NCBI RefSeq assembly: GCF_000144915.1
Contig: NC_014374.1
Coordinates: forward strand, 372,001-436,000
Source of the DNA: Acidilobus saccharovorans 345-15
GTDB taxonomy: Archaea; Thermoproteota; Thermoprotei_A; Sulfolobales; Acidilobaceae
Length of the DNA stretch: 64,000 nt
Direction: 5' to 3'
Under the pieces are notes generated by a model. That model did no database searches. It was given only the letters and a program-made list of their open reading frames with translations, and was not told where the DNA came from. This document shows, piece after piece, positions 4,054 through 42,011 of this stretch (within the stretch, counting starts at the first letter, position 1; every line of letters starts with the position of its first letter). A program made the translations under genes and the position numbers.

Positions 4054-4816
4054 ATATGCCCAAAACCACCACTAGCATGGCTGCGGAGAACTTAGCTGCC
4101 TCTATTATTCCAATGCCCACGTAGGCCTCATAAATGGCCACAGGGGCCGGGTAAACAAGGGACTTACCAAGGTAAACCTCGTATGCTACTATGAAAAGCG
4201 CGCCTGCCTCGGAGGCGGCCCTGGCCCATGAAGTTAGGGCGCCTCCTGCTATGGACCTCTTGATCTTGGGCAGCACTACGCTGATGAAAGTCCTTGCCCT
4301 GGAGGCCCCCAGGCTCATCGCGGTGAGCTCAAGCTCCGGGTCAAGCATACTTATGGCTGACTCCACCACCCGCACAGAGTACGTCGCCGAGACGTACGTG
4401 ACGGCCATGGCCGCGCCCAGTATAGTGTCGACGACGTTGATGTGAAGCCTGTGAAATATGGGGCCAAGCCCCACGTACCAGGAGAATGCAAGGACTATCA
4501 TGACGCCAACTATTATGTGGGGTATTGCTATGGGTAGGTCTATGAGTGACTCGACAAGGCTCTTGCCCCTGAAGTTATAGCGACTCATGATGTATGCCAG
4601 GGGAACCCCAAAGATGACGGAGGCAACAGCAGCTATAGTTGACGTTATTATGGTGACCAGCAGGGCGAGCTCAAAGCTCCTCACCCTAAGCGCTTCCTCA
4701 AGCCCGCTGCTGCCGACTAACAGCAGCACGGCTATTGGGTATGAGAAGAAGAGCAGGAGGAGGCCCCCTATGATAACAAAAAGTACTATGAAGAGGTTCA
4801 GCCTGAGCCTGGCCAA
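3986..4816 (-). CDS. wtpB: ABC transporter permease, tungstate/molybdate type
   Basis: The 276-residue integral membrane protein has about six hydrophobic segments and the binding-protein-dependent permease (BPD) signature near residues 175-200, around the coupling loop EAxxxGA (MSLGASRARTFISVVLPK). It forms the membrane channel of the importer. The gene lies between the substrate-binding and ATPase genes, with 6 bases to the first and an overlap with the second. The TTG start is preceded by a GTGAGG-like sequence that can pair with 16S rRNA. Confidence 0.83.
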   Translation of the reverse strand: MARLRLNLFIVLFVIIGGLLLLFFSYPIAVLLLVGSSGLEEALRVRSFELALLVTIITSTIAAVASVIFGVPLAYIMSRYNFRGKSLVESLIDLPIAIPHIIVGVMIVLAFSWYVGLGPIFHRLHINVVDTILGAAMAVTYVSATYSVRVVESAISMLDPELELTAMSLGASRARTFISVVLPKIKRSIAGGALTSWARAASEAGALFIVAYEVYLGKSLVYPAPVAIYEAYVGIGIIEAAKFSAAMLVVVLGIFVLARILLEARRGSRAGLGAQA

Positions 4817-4822
4817 GGCCCC

Positions 4823-6034
4823 TCACGATGAGCTGGAGGACGGGAATATACTGCTAAGGTATGACGCGTTGGACAGAGGTACTGTGAATGGCTTCAGCGG
4901 CGCAGGCACGGCCGAGTAGTTGCCGTAGACCACGCCGGGCACTATTGGGTTGATGCCGTAGCTCTCGAGCACCTTCTGGCCAGCTGGGCTGAATATTAGC
5001 AGCAGGAAGTCAACGGCGGCCTGCGGGTTCGGGGCTGAGTAAGGTATGGTAGCTGTGTAGACCACCGGGTTGCAGGCGAAGGTCTTAGTCACGCCGAGCT
5101 CGGTCCAGGTGATGTTCACCTGGTGATAGAAGTTAACGTAGCTCAGGTTGCCGAGGTTTATGAAAGGCGGGAGAGTTATGTACGTCATGTTGAAGCCCTT
5201 CTGCTGGTAAGCCTCGGTCTGCGGTATGGCGTTTGATGTGTATGCTGACAGCACAAACTGAACCGAGTTGTTAGCGTACATCAGCGTGAGGAGGTCTATC
5301 TCAGTGTTCCTCATCTGGTACTTAGACGGGTTGTTATAGACCGCGCCCCAGTAGTAGGAGGCGTTGTGCATGAAGGCGAGGCCGGCCAGCTTGAGCACGC
5401 ACTGGGCCTGGTAGCCGCTTGGGTCAGTGAACGGGTTCGAGACGCCAACTACCGTGCTCGAGTTTACCGCTATTATGTCAAATATCTTCTCCCAGGTCTG
5501 GTTCCACTGCGCACTGAAGGGCTGCTCCGTCTGGGCCTGCTTCCAGAGGGCGTAGACCTCCTTGCCCGCGGGCGTCTCCAGGTCGACAATTATTACCATC
5601 TGCGTCACGCCGAAGGCTATCTCGTAGTTGGCGTACTTGGGGAAGAGCACGCTTGGTATAGTGGTGGTGTCGGCGCTGGCCACTAAGCTGAACACTTGGG
5701 TCGTGGCCTCCTTCTGCGCAACCTCGCCGCTACCCGCAAAGAGCGGCTGGCCTTCAGTTATTGACGGGTTGTACTGATTCAGCATCGATAGGAGCTGGCC
5801 AAAGCTAAACTTCAGGGTGCCTGCTGCGCCGACGGTGAAGGGAGAAGTAGAGACGGGGGCTGTGGTGGTATAGGTAGTTGTAGTGGTTGTAGTATATGTA
5901 GAGGTTGTCGCAGGCGCTGTAACCGTCACAGTCCTATGGGGCGCGGCCACGTACCCGGCTCCAGCGCCAACGACGAGCCCTATTACGAGGCCAACAACGA
6001 GGTATATCCATAACGATGCTCCTTTAGAGCTCAC
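4823..6034 (-). CDS. wtpA: Substrate-binding protein of a tungstate/molybdate-type ABC transporter
   Basis: The 403-residue protein is membrane-anchored and extracellular. Residues about 10-30 form one hydrophobic anchor and residues 34-64 a Thr/Ser-rich stalk typical of crenarchaeal binding proteins. The binding domain starts at TVGAAGTLKFSFGQLL. The segment VVGVSNPFTDPSGYQAQCVLKLA matches the oxyanion-binding region of WtpA/ModA proteins, where the family motif is close to S(D/N)PxxDPxGY. A C-terminal Ser run ends the protein. It is the first gene of the transporter operon with a GTG start, and a TATA box lies about 40 bases upstream. Tungstate is favoured because hyperthermophiles commonly use tungstoenzymes, but that is inference. 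Confidence 0.78.
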   Translation of the reverse strand: MSSKGASLWIYLVVGLVIGLVVGAGAGYVAAPHRTVTVTAPATTSTYTTTTTTTYTTTAPVSTSPFTVGAAGTLKFSFGQLLSMLNQYNPSITEGQPLFAGSGEVAQKEATTQVFSLVASADTTTIPSVLFPKYANYEIAFGVTQMVIIVDLETPAGKEVYALWKQAQTEQPFSAQWNQTWEKIFDIIAVNSSTVVGVSNPFTDPSGYQAQCVLKLAGLAFMHNASYYWGAVYNNPSKYQMRNTEIDLLTLMYANNSVQFVLSAYTSNAIPQTEAYQQKGFNMTYITLPPFINLGNLSYVNFYHQVNITWTELGVTKTFACNPVVYTATIPYSAPNPQAAVDFLLLIFSPAGQKVLESYGINPIVPGVVYGNYSAVPAPLKPFTVPLSNASYLSSIFPSSSSS

Positions 6035-6604: not shown

Positions 6605-8044
6605 TCAAATGTATATTGAAATTATACCCCTAAAGGTCAGCGGAGCCACGAGGCCTAGCAGAACTATCAGCAGGGAGGCTATCAGCAGCGCAACGGCGTA
6701 CCTGGCCCTTGGCTTTGGCGTAGCCTCATAATCCTTGCGGAGCATCTCCCTCGAGGCTATTATATAGTAGACGGAGCTCACGCCGCTGTTTATCAGCGCC
6801 GCCAGGGCCAGCCAGACGCTGAACCCCACGGCTGCAAGGAACATGTAGAGCTTGCCCCAGAAGCCCAGCAGCGGTGGAACCCCAAGAAGGCTGTAGAGTA
6901 GCACTGAGGCCGTGACCGCGCTCAGCGGGCTTGACTTCATGAGGCCCCTCAGGGAGTCAAGGCTTCCTCCCACCTCGCCGGCAAAGGCGAACAGCGGAGC
7001 CTTAGCCACGGCATAAGCTATTGACTGGAGGGCCACCGCGAACAGAGAGAGCCGCAGCATGTACTCGTTGCCTACGCCAGCGAAGTAGGAGGCTGCTGCT
7101 ATTGCGGCGAAGATGTAGCCTACCTGTGCCATAGAGCTGTATGCAAGTATCACCTGTAGGTCCCTGGTGGTTAGGGCGGCGAAATTACCGTACGTCATGG
7201 TTGCGACCGCCAGCGCGGCGAGGGTTATTGCAATGATGGTGTGCAGCTGCCCGCCCGAAGCTATTATAACCAGGACCCTGGTCAGGATTGCAAGGAAGCT
7301 CAGCTTCACGACGGCAGCCACGAACGAGACGGTCCTTCCGTCGCCCCTGCCGTAGACGCTCGGCAGCCACCAGTGGAATGGGAAGAGGCCAACCTTGAAT
7401 CCAAGGGCCGCCAGAAGCAGGAGCACCGCGAGGGCCATGAGCCCCCTGGCGTCCGTGGAGAGGCCGCTGACTGGAGTTATCGAGAACGTGTAAGCGCCGC
7501 TTGACACGGAGATGAATGCCAAGGAGCCGACTAAAGCAAGGGTCGCTACCATGCCTACGAAGATGTACCTTACGCCAGCCGCCTTGGCGTTCTTAGAGTC
7601 CGGGGCTGCTATTATTATGTAGCTGATCACCGAGACCAGCAGCCACGAGGCCAGTATTACCAGGGCGTTAGTCGCCCCAGCTAGGAAGAATGCGCCGAAG
7701 AGAGTCATGGGCACTAGGCTGTATAGCGATGGGCTGCTGCTCCACCCTAGCCCATCTGTGCCCACGGCCAGCAGGAATATCGCTGAGGCCAGCGAGGCGC
7801 CTAGAAGCATCAGGGACGTGAAGGAGTCCTGCACAACCAGCCCATGATAGAAGCTAAGCGGCCTGCCCAGAGAGGCCGCGTAGAACGATATTCCCATGGC
7901 CACCGCAAATGAGCCCACGCCTATGGCTGCCATTACCAGCGGGGCAACGTTGTCCCTGCGGCCCGACGGCGACGTTAAGGGTGCCAGCAGGGAGGCGGCC
8001 AGAGTGACGTAGAGCAGGAACTTAATAGTGCCTATCTCCCACAT
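6605..8044 (-). CDS. nuoN: Complex I subunit N (antiporter-like proton pump)
   Basis: This 479-residue, almost wholly hydrophobic protein belongs to the Mrp/NuoL-M-N antiporter family and forms one of the proton channels of the membrane arm. The middle carries the family core (LGFKVGLFPFHWWLPSVY, then AYSSMAQVGYIFA), where the conserved Lys and the Pro-broken helix lie. It is the last gene of the complex I operon, 6 bases after nuoL. Confidence 0.88.
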   Translation of the reverse strand: MWEIGTIKFLLYVTLAASLLAPLTSPSGRRDNVAPLVMAAIGVGSFAVAMGISFYAASLGRPLSFYHGLVVQDSFTSLMLLGASLASAIFLLAVGTDGLGWSSSPSLYSLVPMTLFGAFFLAGATNALVILASWLLVSVISYIIIAAPDSKNAKAAGVRYIFVGMVATLALVGSLAFISVSSGAYTFSITPVSGLSTDARGLMALAVLLLLAALGFKVGLFPFHWWLPSVYGRGDGRTVSFVAAVVKLSFLAILTRVLVIIASGGQLHTIIAITLAALAVATMTYGNFAALTTRDLQVILAYSSMAQVGYIFAAIAAASYFAGVGNEYMLRLSLFAVALQSIAYAVAKAPLFAFAGEVGGSLDSLRGLMKSSPLSAVTASVLLYSLLGVPPLLGFWGKLYMFLAAVGFSVWLALAALINSGVSSVYYIIASREMLRKDYEATPKPRARYAVALLIASLLIVLLGLVAPLTFRGIISIYI

Positions 8045-39116: not shown

Positions 39117-39272
39117 CTAAGCGCACCTCCAATATTCCTCCTGTGTCGGGCCTAATAAAATGGAGCTCTTTAGATTAAAAATAAAAACAAAGATAAAAAT
39201 AAATTAGATTAATACTAATATTAGAGGACCTTTTTATAGGTGCCCTTCAGTTATGGAAGGCGGAGATAGCAT

Positions 39273-39524
39273 TTGCAGGTGCAACAGAAGAAGTTTACAC
39301 TTGATATTAATAGTTATCATATAATTAGATGGGACCCAAAGGTCCAGGGAGAGGACGATCTCAGGAAAATGCTGGCCGACAGCCTGAAGAAGGGAGCCAA
39401 AAGGGTAGCTATCATAGTTAAATCAGATGACGTCGACTATATGGTAAAGGCCAGAGAAGTCATAGCTGGCTTCATAGCTCAAACCATAGTAATCTTTAAG
39501 GAGAAGGAGGTGGAGATAGCTTGA
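39273..39524 (+). CDS. Small protein of the radical SAM operon, unknown
   Basis: The 83-residue acidic/basic protein reads as alternating strands and helices (FTLDINSYHIIRWD; DDLRKMLADSLKKG; KRVAIIVKSDDVDYMVKAREVIAGF; QTIVIFKEKEVEIA). I do not recognise it. Its stop overlaps the start of the radical SAM gene by four bases (TTGA), so the two are translationally coupled and it may be a partner of that enzyme. TTG start, with a TATA-like TTTTTATAG at 39231-39239. Confidence 0.65.
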   Translation: MQVQQKKFTLDINSYHIIRWDPKVQGEDDLRKMLADSLKKGAKRVAIIVKSDDVDYMVKAREVIAGFIAQTIVIFKEKEVEIA

Positions 39525-41032
39525 CATTCGATGTTGTGATAACTACGGATAGAAGCATGATGACCGATCATCATCATCACGAGTTCCTGGGGTTCATGAC
39601 GACGGGGCCCGCCTTTGGGGTCCCTGAGTGGGTATGGAGGTGGATAGCGGCACCAAAGCCCAAGGTAGACAGCCTGGGAAGGCCTAAGGTGGCGCCCTAC
39701 GGACTCAGGAAGATAGAGGCCGCCCTGGTCGACGCTGGTTTTAACGCTGCAGTCGTGGACCCTGACCATATAAGCAAACACCTGGACACAATGAAGGTCC
39801 TCATGATAGGCCACCACGACTTCTTCGCCTATGGGCCGCCCAGCAGCGAGTGGTGGACTATAACGGGCAGGGAGCCCTTCAACAGGGTCAGCTTCAGGAG
39901 GTTCATGGAGAGCCCGGCCGTCAGGGAGGCCAAGAGGAGGGGTGTCAAGATAATAGTTGGAGGCCCCGCGGCCTGGCAGTGGCTCTGGAGCACTGACGAG
40001 TGGAAGAAGTGGGGCGTTGACACGGTAATTGACGGCGAGGCTGACAGGGTGGTTTCAGAGGTAGTGGACAGGGCCATCAAGGGCCAGGAGCTTCCAGACT
40101 ACATATATGTAGGGCCTTATGACACGCCCGCAACTGCGGATGAAATACCTAAGATAAAGCACGCCAGCGTCAATGGACTAGTGGAGATCATGAGAGGATG
40201 CCCAAGGGGGTGCAAGTTCTGCAGCGTGACCCTAAGGCCGTGGAGGTTCATACCGGTCGACGACGTAATAAGTGAAATAAAGGTTAACATGAGCGAGGGC
40301 GAGAAGGGCATTATACTCCACAGCGAGGACGTTCTCCTCTACTACGCTGATGGCATAAAACCAAGACCTGAGGGCCTGCTAAAGCTTCACACTGCGGTGA
40401 GGCAGCTTACCGATGAACCCATAGGCTGGAGTCACGCGAGCCTGGCGGCCATAAAGTACGCTGAGGACAACTACAAGCTCATATCTAAGCTGACCGAGAT
40501 AATGTTCTCAAGCGAGAAGCAGAGGTACCTGGGCGTCGAGGTTGGCCTGGAGACGGGCAGCGTCAAGCTCGCCAGGAAGGTCATGCCAGCCAAGTCAGCC
40601 CCCTACCCAACTGAGAAGTACCCAGAAGTCGTGGAGGACGCGTTCGCGATAATGCATGAACACAACGTGATCCCCGCCGCCACATTAATAATTGGCCAGC
40701 CGGGCGAGGAGCCTGATGACGTAGTAGCCACTACCGAGCTCGTGGAGAAGTTGAGGCCTTACAGGAGCCTTATAGTGCCCATGTTCTTCGTGCCCATGGG
40801 GGCTTTCAAGAACATGGAGTGGTTCAGGAGGAACATGGTGAGGCCTGAGCACGTGGAGCTCCTCAGGGCCACGCTCAGGCACAGCGCCTACTGGGCCAGG
40901 GATATAGTGGATAGGTTCTACCTTAAGGGAACCAGGTACTTCCTAGTGAGGGCAGCGGTCAAGTGGATCATAGGGTATATAGAGAGGAAGGCCGAGGAGG
41001 CTGCTAGGGCTGTGGAGCAGCGTGGAGCCTAA
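39521..41032 (+). CDS. B12-binding-type radical SAM enzyme
   Basis: The 503-residue protein has an N-terminal cobalamin-binding-like domain (about 1-195: LRKIEAALVDAGF, KVLMIGHHDFFAYGPPS, IIVGGPAAWQW). The radical SAM domain follows, with the cluster motif MRGCPRGCKFCSV (CxxxCxxC) near residue 228. The distinctive N-terminus TTDRSMMTDHHHHEFLGFMTTGP resembles a crenarchaeal group. I recall the GDGT ring synthases GrsA/GrsB being of this B12-radical SAM type, so membrane-lipid modification is a candidate role but not established. The neighbouring membrane-protein gene overlaps it by 11 bases. Confidence 0.75.
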   Translation: MTFDVVITTDRSMMTDHHHHEFLGFMTTGPAFGVPEWVWRWIAAPKPKVDSLGRPKVAPYGLRKIEAALVDAGFNAAVVDPDHISKHLDTMKVLMIGHHDFFAYGPPSSEWWTITGREPFNRVSFRRFMESPAVREAKRRGVKIIVGGPAAWQWLWSTDEWKKWGVDTVIDGEADRVVSEVVDRAIKGQELPDYIYVGPYDTPATADEIPKIKHASVNGLVEIMRGCPRGCKFCSVTLRPWRFIPVDDVISEIKVNMSEGEKGIILHSEDVLLYYADGIKPRPEGLLKLHTAVRQLTDEPIGWSHASLAAIKYAEDNYKLISKLTEIMFSSEKQRYLGVEVGLETGSVKLARKVMPAKSAPYPTEKYPEVVEDAFAIMHEHNVIPAATLIIGQPGEEPDDVVATTELVEKLRPYRSLIVPMFFVPMGAFKNMEWFRRNMVRPEHVELLRATLRHSAYWARDIVDRFYLKGTRYFLVRAAVKWIIGYIERKAEEAARAVEQRGA

Positions 41033-42011
41033 AGTTAACGGCTCGGGAAGCGCTAAGAGGTACCTGGTCTTTATAGTTATACTCTTTGCGCTTCTAGTGC
41101 TCGCAATCTTTAATATAGTAGGAGGCGGTCTCGAGCACGTAGTATACTACTTGTCGCGCAGCTATGACGCTGTTCTCATAGCTGCCGCCATCATATTTCT
41201 CGAGGAGTCCCTGAAAAGCGTCAGGTTTGTCATAGCTGCCAGGTCGAGAGGGCTGAGGCTTTCCCCCTTAAGAGCCTGGGAGGCCCACTTCTCAAGCCTC
41301 TTCATAGGAATGCTGACGCCCGCGTTCTCAGGGGCCATACCTACGGCCACCGCAATAATAGGCAGCGCCACGGGGGCGCCTCCTCCAGAAGCGCTGTCGG
41401 TAGCGCTCTCAGCCACGTTCATAGACTCCGTAGTGCCAGCCGCCGTATCCTTGTACTTTGCCTGGTCACTCATGCCTAGGTCTGTGGTGGTGTTGCTGAT
41501 CTCGATAACTATCATAGTTATCTGGGCCATGGTGATATCGAGAAGGCTCACGACCTGGTTTCTATCAGAGGTCTCAAGGAGGTTGAACTCTAACGCTGCG
41601 AGATTAATAGAGGGGGAAATCGAGAACATGCGGGATTCCCTAAGCCATATTATAGCGTCAAGGAGATCAATGATACCGATGCTGTTGGTGTCAGCGGCTT
41701 CCTACATTATAGAGGCGTTCTCTATCTATGTGCTTACTCTGGGAGGCCTTCACGGCTTCCTTATAGACCTCGAGGCCCTAATGATGTCATATGTAGGAGG
41801 CAACGTGCCCACGCCTGGCGGCGAGGGAGGGGTTGAGTACTCCTTAGCGTTGGTGCTCAAAGGAGTAGACGCGGTGCTGTGGAGGACTGCTTACATAATA
41901 GTTGCTATGGTCCCCATAGTGCTGCTCGGAAAGATCGTGTCTGGGTATGTAGACTACGGAAGCCTCGTTTACTCTCACTACAGGGCAATGCTCAGGGGCC
42001 GCGGGGGATAA
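41022..42011 (+). CDS. Flippase-like membrane protein (LPG synthase transmembrane/UPF0104 family)
   Basis: The 329-residue protein has about eight hydrophobic helices. The segment FIGMLTPAFSGAIPTATAIIGSATGAP and the C-terminal VGGNVPTPGGEGGVEYSLALVLKGV are typical of the lysylphosphatidylglycerol synthase transmembrane family, whose archaeal members include polyprenyl-sugar and lipid-handling proteins. GTG start inside the end of the radical SAM gene. The shared operon suggests a common lipid or glycolipid task. Confidence 0.75.
   Translation: MEPKVNGSGSAKRYLVFIVILFALLVLAIFNIVGGGLEHVVYYLSRSYDAVLIAAAIIFLEESLKSVRFVIAARSRGLRLSPLRAWEAHFSSLFIGMLTPAFSGAIPTATAIIGSATGAPPPEALSVALSATFIDSVVPAAVSLYFAWSLMPRSVVVLLISITIIVIWAMVISRRLTTWFLSEVSRRLNSNAARLIEGEIENMRDSLSHIIASRRSMIPMLLVSAASYIIEAFSIYVLTLGGLHGFLIDLEALMMSYVGGNVPTPGGEGGVEYSLALVLKGVDAVLWRTAYIIVAMVPIVLLGKIVSGYVDYGSLVYSHYRAMLRGRGG

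Follow-up and report, generated by a model that had tools for sequence, protein, structure and literature searches.

A small gene beside grsA in Acidilobus saccharovorans may encode a partner of archaeal lipid-tail-modifying enzymes

Introduction

In the archaeon Acidilobus saccharovorans, the gene of an apparent ortholog of the GDGT ring synthase GrsA is directly preceded by a small gene whose relatives, in other Thermoproteota, stand beside grsA or beside the gene of another lipid-tail enzyme, geranylgeranyl reductase (GGR). The association of this small family with the lipid-tail pathway is family-wide, and the 83-residue protein is probably a partner or a regulator of lipid-tail-modifying enzymes, acting by a mechanism that we infer below. 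The two genes belong to a three-gene operon in a window of 64,000 nucleotides (positions 372,001 to 436,000 of NC_014374.1; the source genome, G000, is a single contig of 1,496,453 bp). From the sequence comparisons presented here, we find it likely that this operon serves GDGT-tail modification, with GrsA and a soluble partner of tail-modifying enzymes as its core and a PF03706 membrane protein as a local addition.

Gene arrangement

An earlier note on this DNA had described three overlapping genes, and the corresponding open reading frames are indeed found at exactly the positions that it gave (Table 1), with overlaps of 4 bp between the first and the second and of 11 bp between the second and the third. 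Another Acidilobus genome retains all three with their reading frames intact (protein identities of 60, 90 and 57%, in gene order), and in the comparison with the sister Acidilobus the changes are mostly at third codon positions, with NG86 dN/dS values of 0.14, 0.05 and 0.17. This conservation of the frames, together with the third-position bias, shows that the three open reading frames are real genes.

Table 1. The operon and the region that precedes it (positions in the window)
Feature	Positions	Strand	Basis
Intergenic region before the operon; putative TATA-like archaeal stretch CTTTTTATAG at about 39230; RBS-like GGCGGAG just 5' of the TTG	39117..39272	+	Read off the sequence, putative
Small cysteine-free protein, 83 aa, probable relative of DUF5751/ST0493	39273..39524	+	ORF, TTG start; upstream homologs across the phylum, profile links, AF2 fold
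Predicted GrsA ortholog, radical SAM GDGT ring synthase, 503 aa	39521..41032	+	ORF, TTG start; identity to Saci_1585, tree, gene counting, AF2 model
Polytopic PF03706/TIGR00374 "flippase-like" protein, 329 aa; lineage-restricted neighbour	41022..42011	+	ORF, GTG start; family scores

The radical SAM enzyme

Judged by its sequence, the 503-residue enzyme is, by every test available, an ortholog of GrsA. Its top match in the Sulfolobus acidocaldarius genome of our set (G131, at 1353522-1355039) is 56% identical over 488 residues. That G131 is S. acidocaldarius is supported by its GGR, which matches PDB 3atq over the full length (1034 bits), and the N-terminus of its pyrE product, MDFVKAL, is that of the saci_1597 primer published in PMC9628888. 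The grsA ortholog of G131 lies 12 open reading frames before this pyrE (saci_1597) and 18 after a GGR-like gene consistent with saci_1567, the reference for this second count (PMC10821996); both counts converge on one number, so the locus is Saci_1585. In PMC8473941 and PMC7312580, Saci_1585 is GrsA and Saci_0240 is GrsB, which the second match in G131 (199277-200863) fits.

In a tree, the window protein groups with Saci_1585 and 30 orthologs in a single clade (support 100/99), split from the GrsB-like sequences; this tree was built without remote radical SAM outgroups, whose long branches had spoiled a first tree. GrsA orthologs occur throughout the order (49-90% identity), and Grs-type homologs (E<=1e-60) in 246 of 300 Thermoproteota genomes. 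GrsB itself, a homologous radical SAM ring synthase which is 33% identical to the window enzyme, belongs to a separate clade.

The protein passes the PF04055 cut-off (40.5 bits for 29.5) and carries the radical SAM motif CPRGCKFC, whose cysteines C227, C231 and C234 are invariant in 30 orthologs and are the only cysteines of the window enzyme, a CX3CX2C arrangement without auxiliary-cluster cysteines. Grs enzymes have a single cluster and GrsA has two elongated C-terminal helices (PMC11186832); the AF2 model of the window enzyme (pLDDT 88) has long C-terminal helices at 442-465 and 471-502, so that the single radical SAM cluster and the two helices add to the clade and the identity that it shares with Saci_1585.

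The earlier note had spoken of a cobalamin-type radical SAM enzyme and, as a plausible reading, of a system modifying membrane lipids or glycolipids. The radical SAM assignment stands, while the B12 part is weaker than was stated, PF02310 (B12-binding) being matched below its cut-off (E=0.093). Among the most similar structures are B12 enzymes, TsrM for example, and MiaB as well; of the solved structures, MgmA (9ccb) comes nearest. No curated family claims the protein, NCBIfam returning only sub-cutoff relatives (MJ_1487, MiaB, MCR glutamine methylase). The lipid-modifying function is retained, as that of a known enzyme, GrsA, rather than of a new modifier. The N-terminal HHHH is not distinctive as was thought: it is the local form of a conserved motif, [ND]HHG[KR]EF, which reads NHHGKEF in most orthologs, and since conservation of the histidines stops at the second one we do not retain HHHH as a metal-binding hallmark. 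Tetraether synthase Tes (MJ0619, PDB 7tol) is, like GrsA, a radical SAM enzyme working on archaeal lipid tails; the window enzyme is not Tes, since the GrsA profile finds no match to 7tol at E<=1 and the genome has a separate Tes.

By orthology with the S. acidocaldarius enzyme, whose C-7 ring activity is known, the Acidilobus GrsA would use one [4Fe-4S] cluster and SAM to form a radical on the tetraether lipid chain and would close cyclopentane rings at C-7. The related Acidilobus sulfurireducens makes GDGTs with cyclopentane rings, in numbers that depend on pH (PMC5487899, PMC7312580), which is consistent with this activity and goes no further.

Other radical SAM genes were seen elsewhere in the same genome. 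The Tes is at G000:C1:1143671-1144165 (L174; E=3e-130 to PDB 7tol). A second Grs-like protein of uncertain type (G000:C1:1265319-1266632, L081) sits on a long branch between GrsA and GrsB, and could differ in ring or tail specificity. Two adjoining radical SAM genes, one of them SPASM/PqqE-like, are found at G000:C1:520383-522117 (L167, L172).

The family and fold of the small protein

A single-sequence search reached two genera only, as if the 83-residue protein were an orphan; positional extraction and profile comparisons overturned this reading. On the evidence of profiles and of a predicted fold, the protein is a member of an unstudied, fast-evolving family related to DUF5751 (PF19025; PDB 2rbg). 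The Pfam model itself gives no match for the window protein, which does not reach the gathering score, and it matches 13 of 56 upstream homologs with weak or better similarity (E<=0.1); L228 passes. In hhalign, the profile of the window clade (A5) aligns with that of the Desulfurococcales clade (A7) at E=2.6e-9, and A7 aligns with the Sulfolobaceae DUF5751 profile (A6) at E=4e-7, the direct link between A5 and A6 being weak (50%).

The AF2 fold (pLDDT 86.7) is b-a-b-a-b, and 2rbg (ST0493) is among its best Foldseek matches (probability 0.99, TM 0.59), with a modest E of 0.08. This b-a-b-a-b unit, with an LRxxLxxNIxxTI-like segment, is the core of the family. The window protein has a fold similar to that of DUF5751 but is shorter (83 residues versus about 125), the C-terminal part being missing. 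It has neither a cysteine nor a conserved cofactor motif. A literature search, with few subscription papers within reach, found nothing naming DUF5751 or ST0493 and no published link to lipid tails.

Genomic context across the Thermoproteota

A homologous small gene is found directly upstream of grsA, often with a 4-bp overlap, in loci of Desulfurococcales, Caldisphaera, Thermofilales, Aigarchaeota-like archaea, Geocrenenecus and Nezhaarchaeota. The family profile (A4) has matches in 67 of 300 genomes at E<=1e-5, with one copy per genome: 49 copies directly precede a grsA-type gene, another 15, from Sulfolobaceae without exception, directly precede GGR, and the remaining 3, all from one Pyrobaculum-like genus, are beside neither. 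It is important to note that A4 was seeded mainly with grsA-adjacent genes, which is why an independent check with the Pfam DUF5751 model, built regardless of context, matters. That model has matches in 20 of the 300 genomes, 15 beside GGR, 4 upstream of grsA and 1 unclear, so that 19 of 20 adjoin one enzyme or the other; the Sulfolobaceae DUF5751 copies are upstream of GGR in all cases (15/15).

In Sulfolobaceae, grsA lacks the small gene, whereas grsA is preceded by it in Acidilobus and in many other Thermoproteota. The 79-82 residue gene which does precede grsA in Sulfolobaceae was rejected as a member of the family: it is unrelated and has no Pfam match. A second, Pyrodictiaceae-like lineage (G038, G048 and G058) also has the small gene upstream of GGR, and in two of these genomes (G038 and G048) grsA is without it. 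In two loci from metagenome-assembled genomes (L155/L157), the small gene is divergent from GGR and grsA is about 4 kb away. It was not found beside any of the 7 GrsB-like genes examined.

Among 60 relatives, the small gene is present in 24 of the 39 that have grsA and in 1 of the 21 that do not (Fisher p=2e-5, kinship ignored), this single exception being an 87% complete MAG. The absence of a detectable small gene from 15 of the 39 genomes with grsA means that not every genome with grsA needs it, unless the gene has diverged past detection. It stands alone in the Pyrobaculum-like G136, G171 and G311 and in G039/G059.

Three further observations concern the neighbourhood. A second, divergent GrsA-like enzyme with its own putative small partner gene directly before it is found at G302:C55:4426-6184 (L287). 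Stand-alone members of the small family that do bear cysteines lie beside a tRNA-guanine-transglycosylase-like gene in the Pyrobaculum-like genus (L283, L284 and L285, at about 4600-5480). A CysS gene lies downstream in 20 loci; we took it for a lineage-specific neighbour and disregarded it.

Proposed role of the small protein

GGR saturates and GrsA cyclizes the same isoprenoid chains, so that a gene found next to either suggests a shared function in the processing of tails. The phylum-wide conservation of this context lends good support to the earlier suggestion of a small protein acting as an undescribed partner of the enzyme. The soluble small protein would work with isoprenoid-tail enzymes, GrsA in most lineages and GGR in Sulfolobaceae and in the Pyrodictiaceae-like family. 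Most likely it would attach to the enzyme, either as a subunit or as an adaptor, and control its activity or its access to the membrane lipid tails; what we infer from this context is that it physically binds and that it acts in this way. It may be, tentatively, that one small soluble subunit is shared by two steps of tetraether-tail processing, the saturation that GGR carries out and the cyclization that GrsA does, giving these non-membrane enzymes access to the tails or control over them, and that lineages differ in which of the two enzymes the gene has stayed next to; the protein might even couple saturation to cyclization. Against a partner count the relatives with grsA in which no copy is detected and the genomes in which the small gene stands alone; grsA and grsB of S. 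acidocaldarius, moreover, were assigned by deletion and the small gene went unnoticed.

The main rival to a binding partner or adaptor, which we favour, is that the enzyme is GrsA and the small protein a regulator, either a ligand sensor or a post-transcriptional control of the operon. The small gene heads the operon, which is a fitting position, and an HTH gene is present in 30 loci, in 25 of which, many from Desulfurococcales, it is at position -2, just before the small gene; it is MarR-like (MarR_2, E=4e-6). Yet no HTH gene is seen upstream in the Acidilobus, Caldisphaera and Sulfolobaceae loci, where the small gene remains, and the 4-bp overlap with grsA suggests the translational coupling of partners. 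Regulation by the small protein seems rather unlikely to us. The MarR-like gene at -2 from grsA (L056, L057, L058, L060, L067 and others; about 25 loci) is a candidate regulator of grsA in its own right.

In Methanosarcina acetivorans, the gene of the lipid-tail enzyme GGR has a small neighbour, which codes for a ferredoxin that aids the activity of GGR (PMC9385802, PMC10821996). By analogy, the small protein could be an electron-transfer or reductant-docking partner of GGR and GrsA: both enzymes require reducing equivalents, the small gene adjoins GGR much as the Methanosarcina ferredoxin gene does, and there is no ferredoxin gene near the Sulfolobus GGR, whose in vivo reductant is unknown (PMC10821996). 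Contrary to the Methanosarcina partner, the Acidilobus protein is devoid of cysteines, which makes an iron-sulfur or thiol electron carrier unlikely, and with no conserved cofactor motif only the docking of another carrier could be envisaged; we regard an electron-transfer role as improbable.

The third gene

The earlier note had assigned the third protein to a polytopic lipid-handling family, and rightly so, as far as family scores can tell: the protein is a genuine PF03706 membrane protein, above the cut-offs of both PF03706 (LPG_synthase_TM; 44.0 versus 33.4 bits) and TIGR00374 (48.3 versus 43.2 bits). These scores and the overlap of the genes in Acidilobus would suit a dedicated cassette of three genes for lipid or glycolipid export or modification, a proposal that we hold to be very improbable since the third gene adjoins grsA solely in Acidilobus and Caldisphaera relatives, its product is only 57% identical where GrsA is 90% identical, and it is broken up in G001 and G002. 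In these two other Acidilobus genomes, frame-shifted pieces or remnants of the PF03706 gene (L048, 7542-8370; L049, about 7827-7946) are found with an intact grsA. The restricted range of this gene and its decay mean that it is no conserved part of the system, and we see it as a local passenger or accessory.

Significance

How GrsA, GrsB, Tes and GGR, which are not integral membrane proteins, reach tails that are buried in the membrane is an open question, as is the nature of the reductant of the Sulfolobus GGR (PMC9385802, PMC10821996). The position of the small gene beside grsA or GGR across the phylum makes its product a probable missing partner in the making of lipid tails; as the gene stands beside GGR or grsA and is also present in the tractable S. 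acidocaldarius, both questions can be addressed through one gene. The number of rings in GDGTs underlies the TEX86 climate proxy, and the factors that set it matter beyond microbiology. In Acidilobus, the enzyme appears to be of a known kind, a GrsA ortholog, and the small partner gene would be a new, testable element of the pathway.
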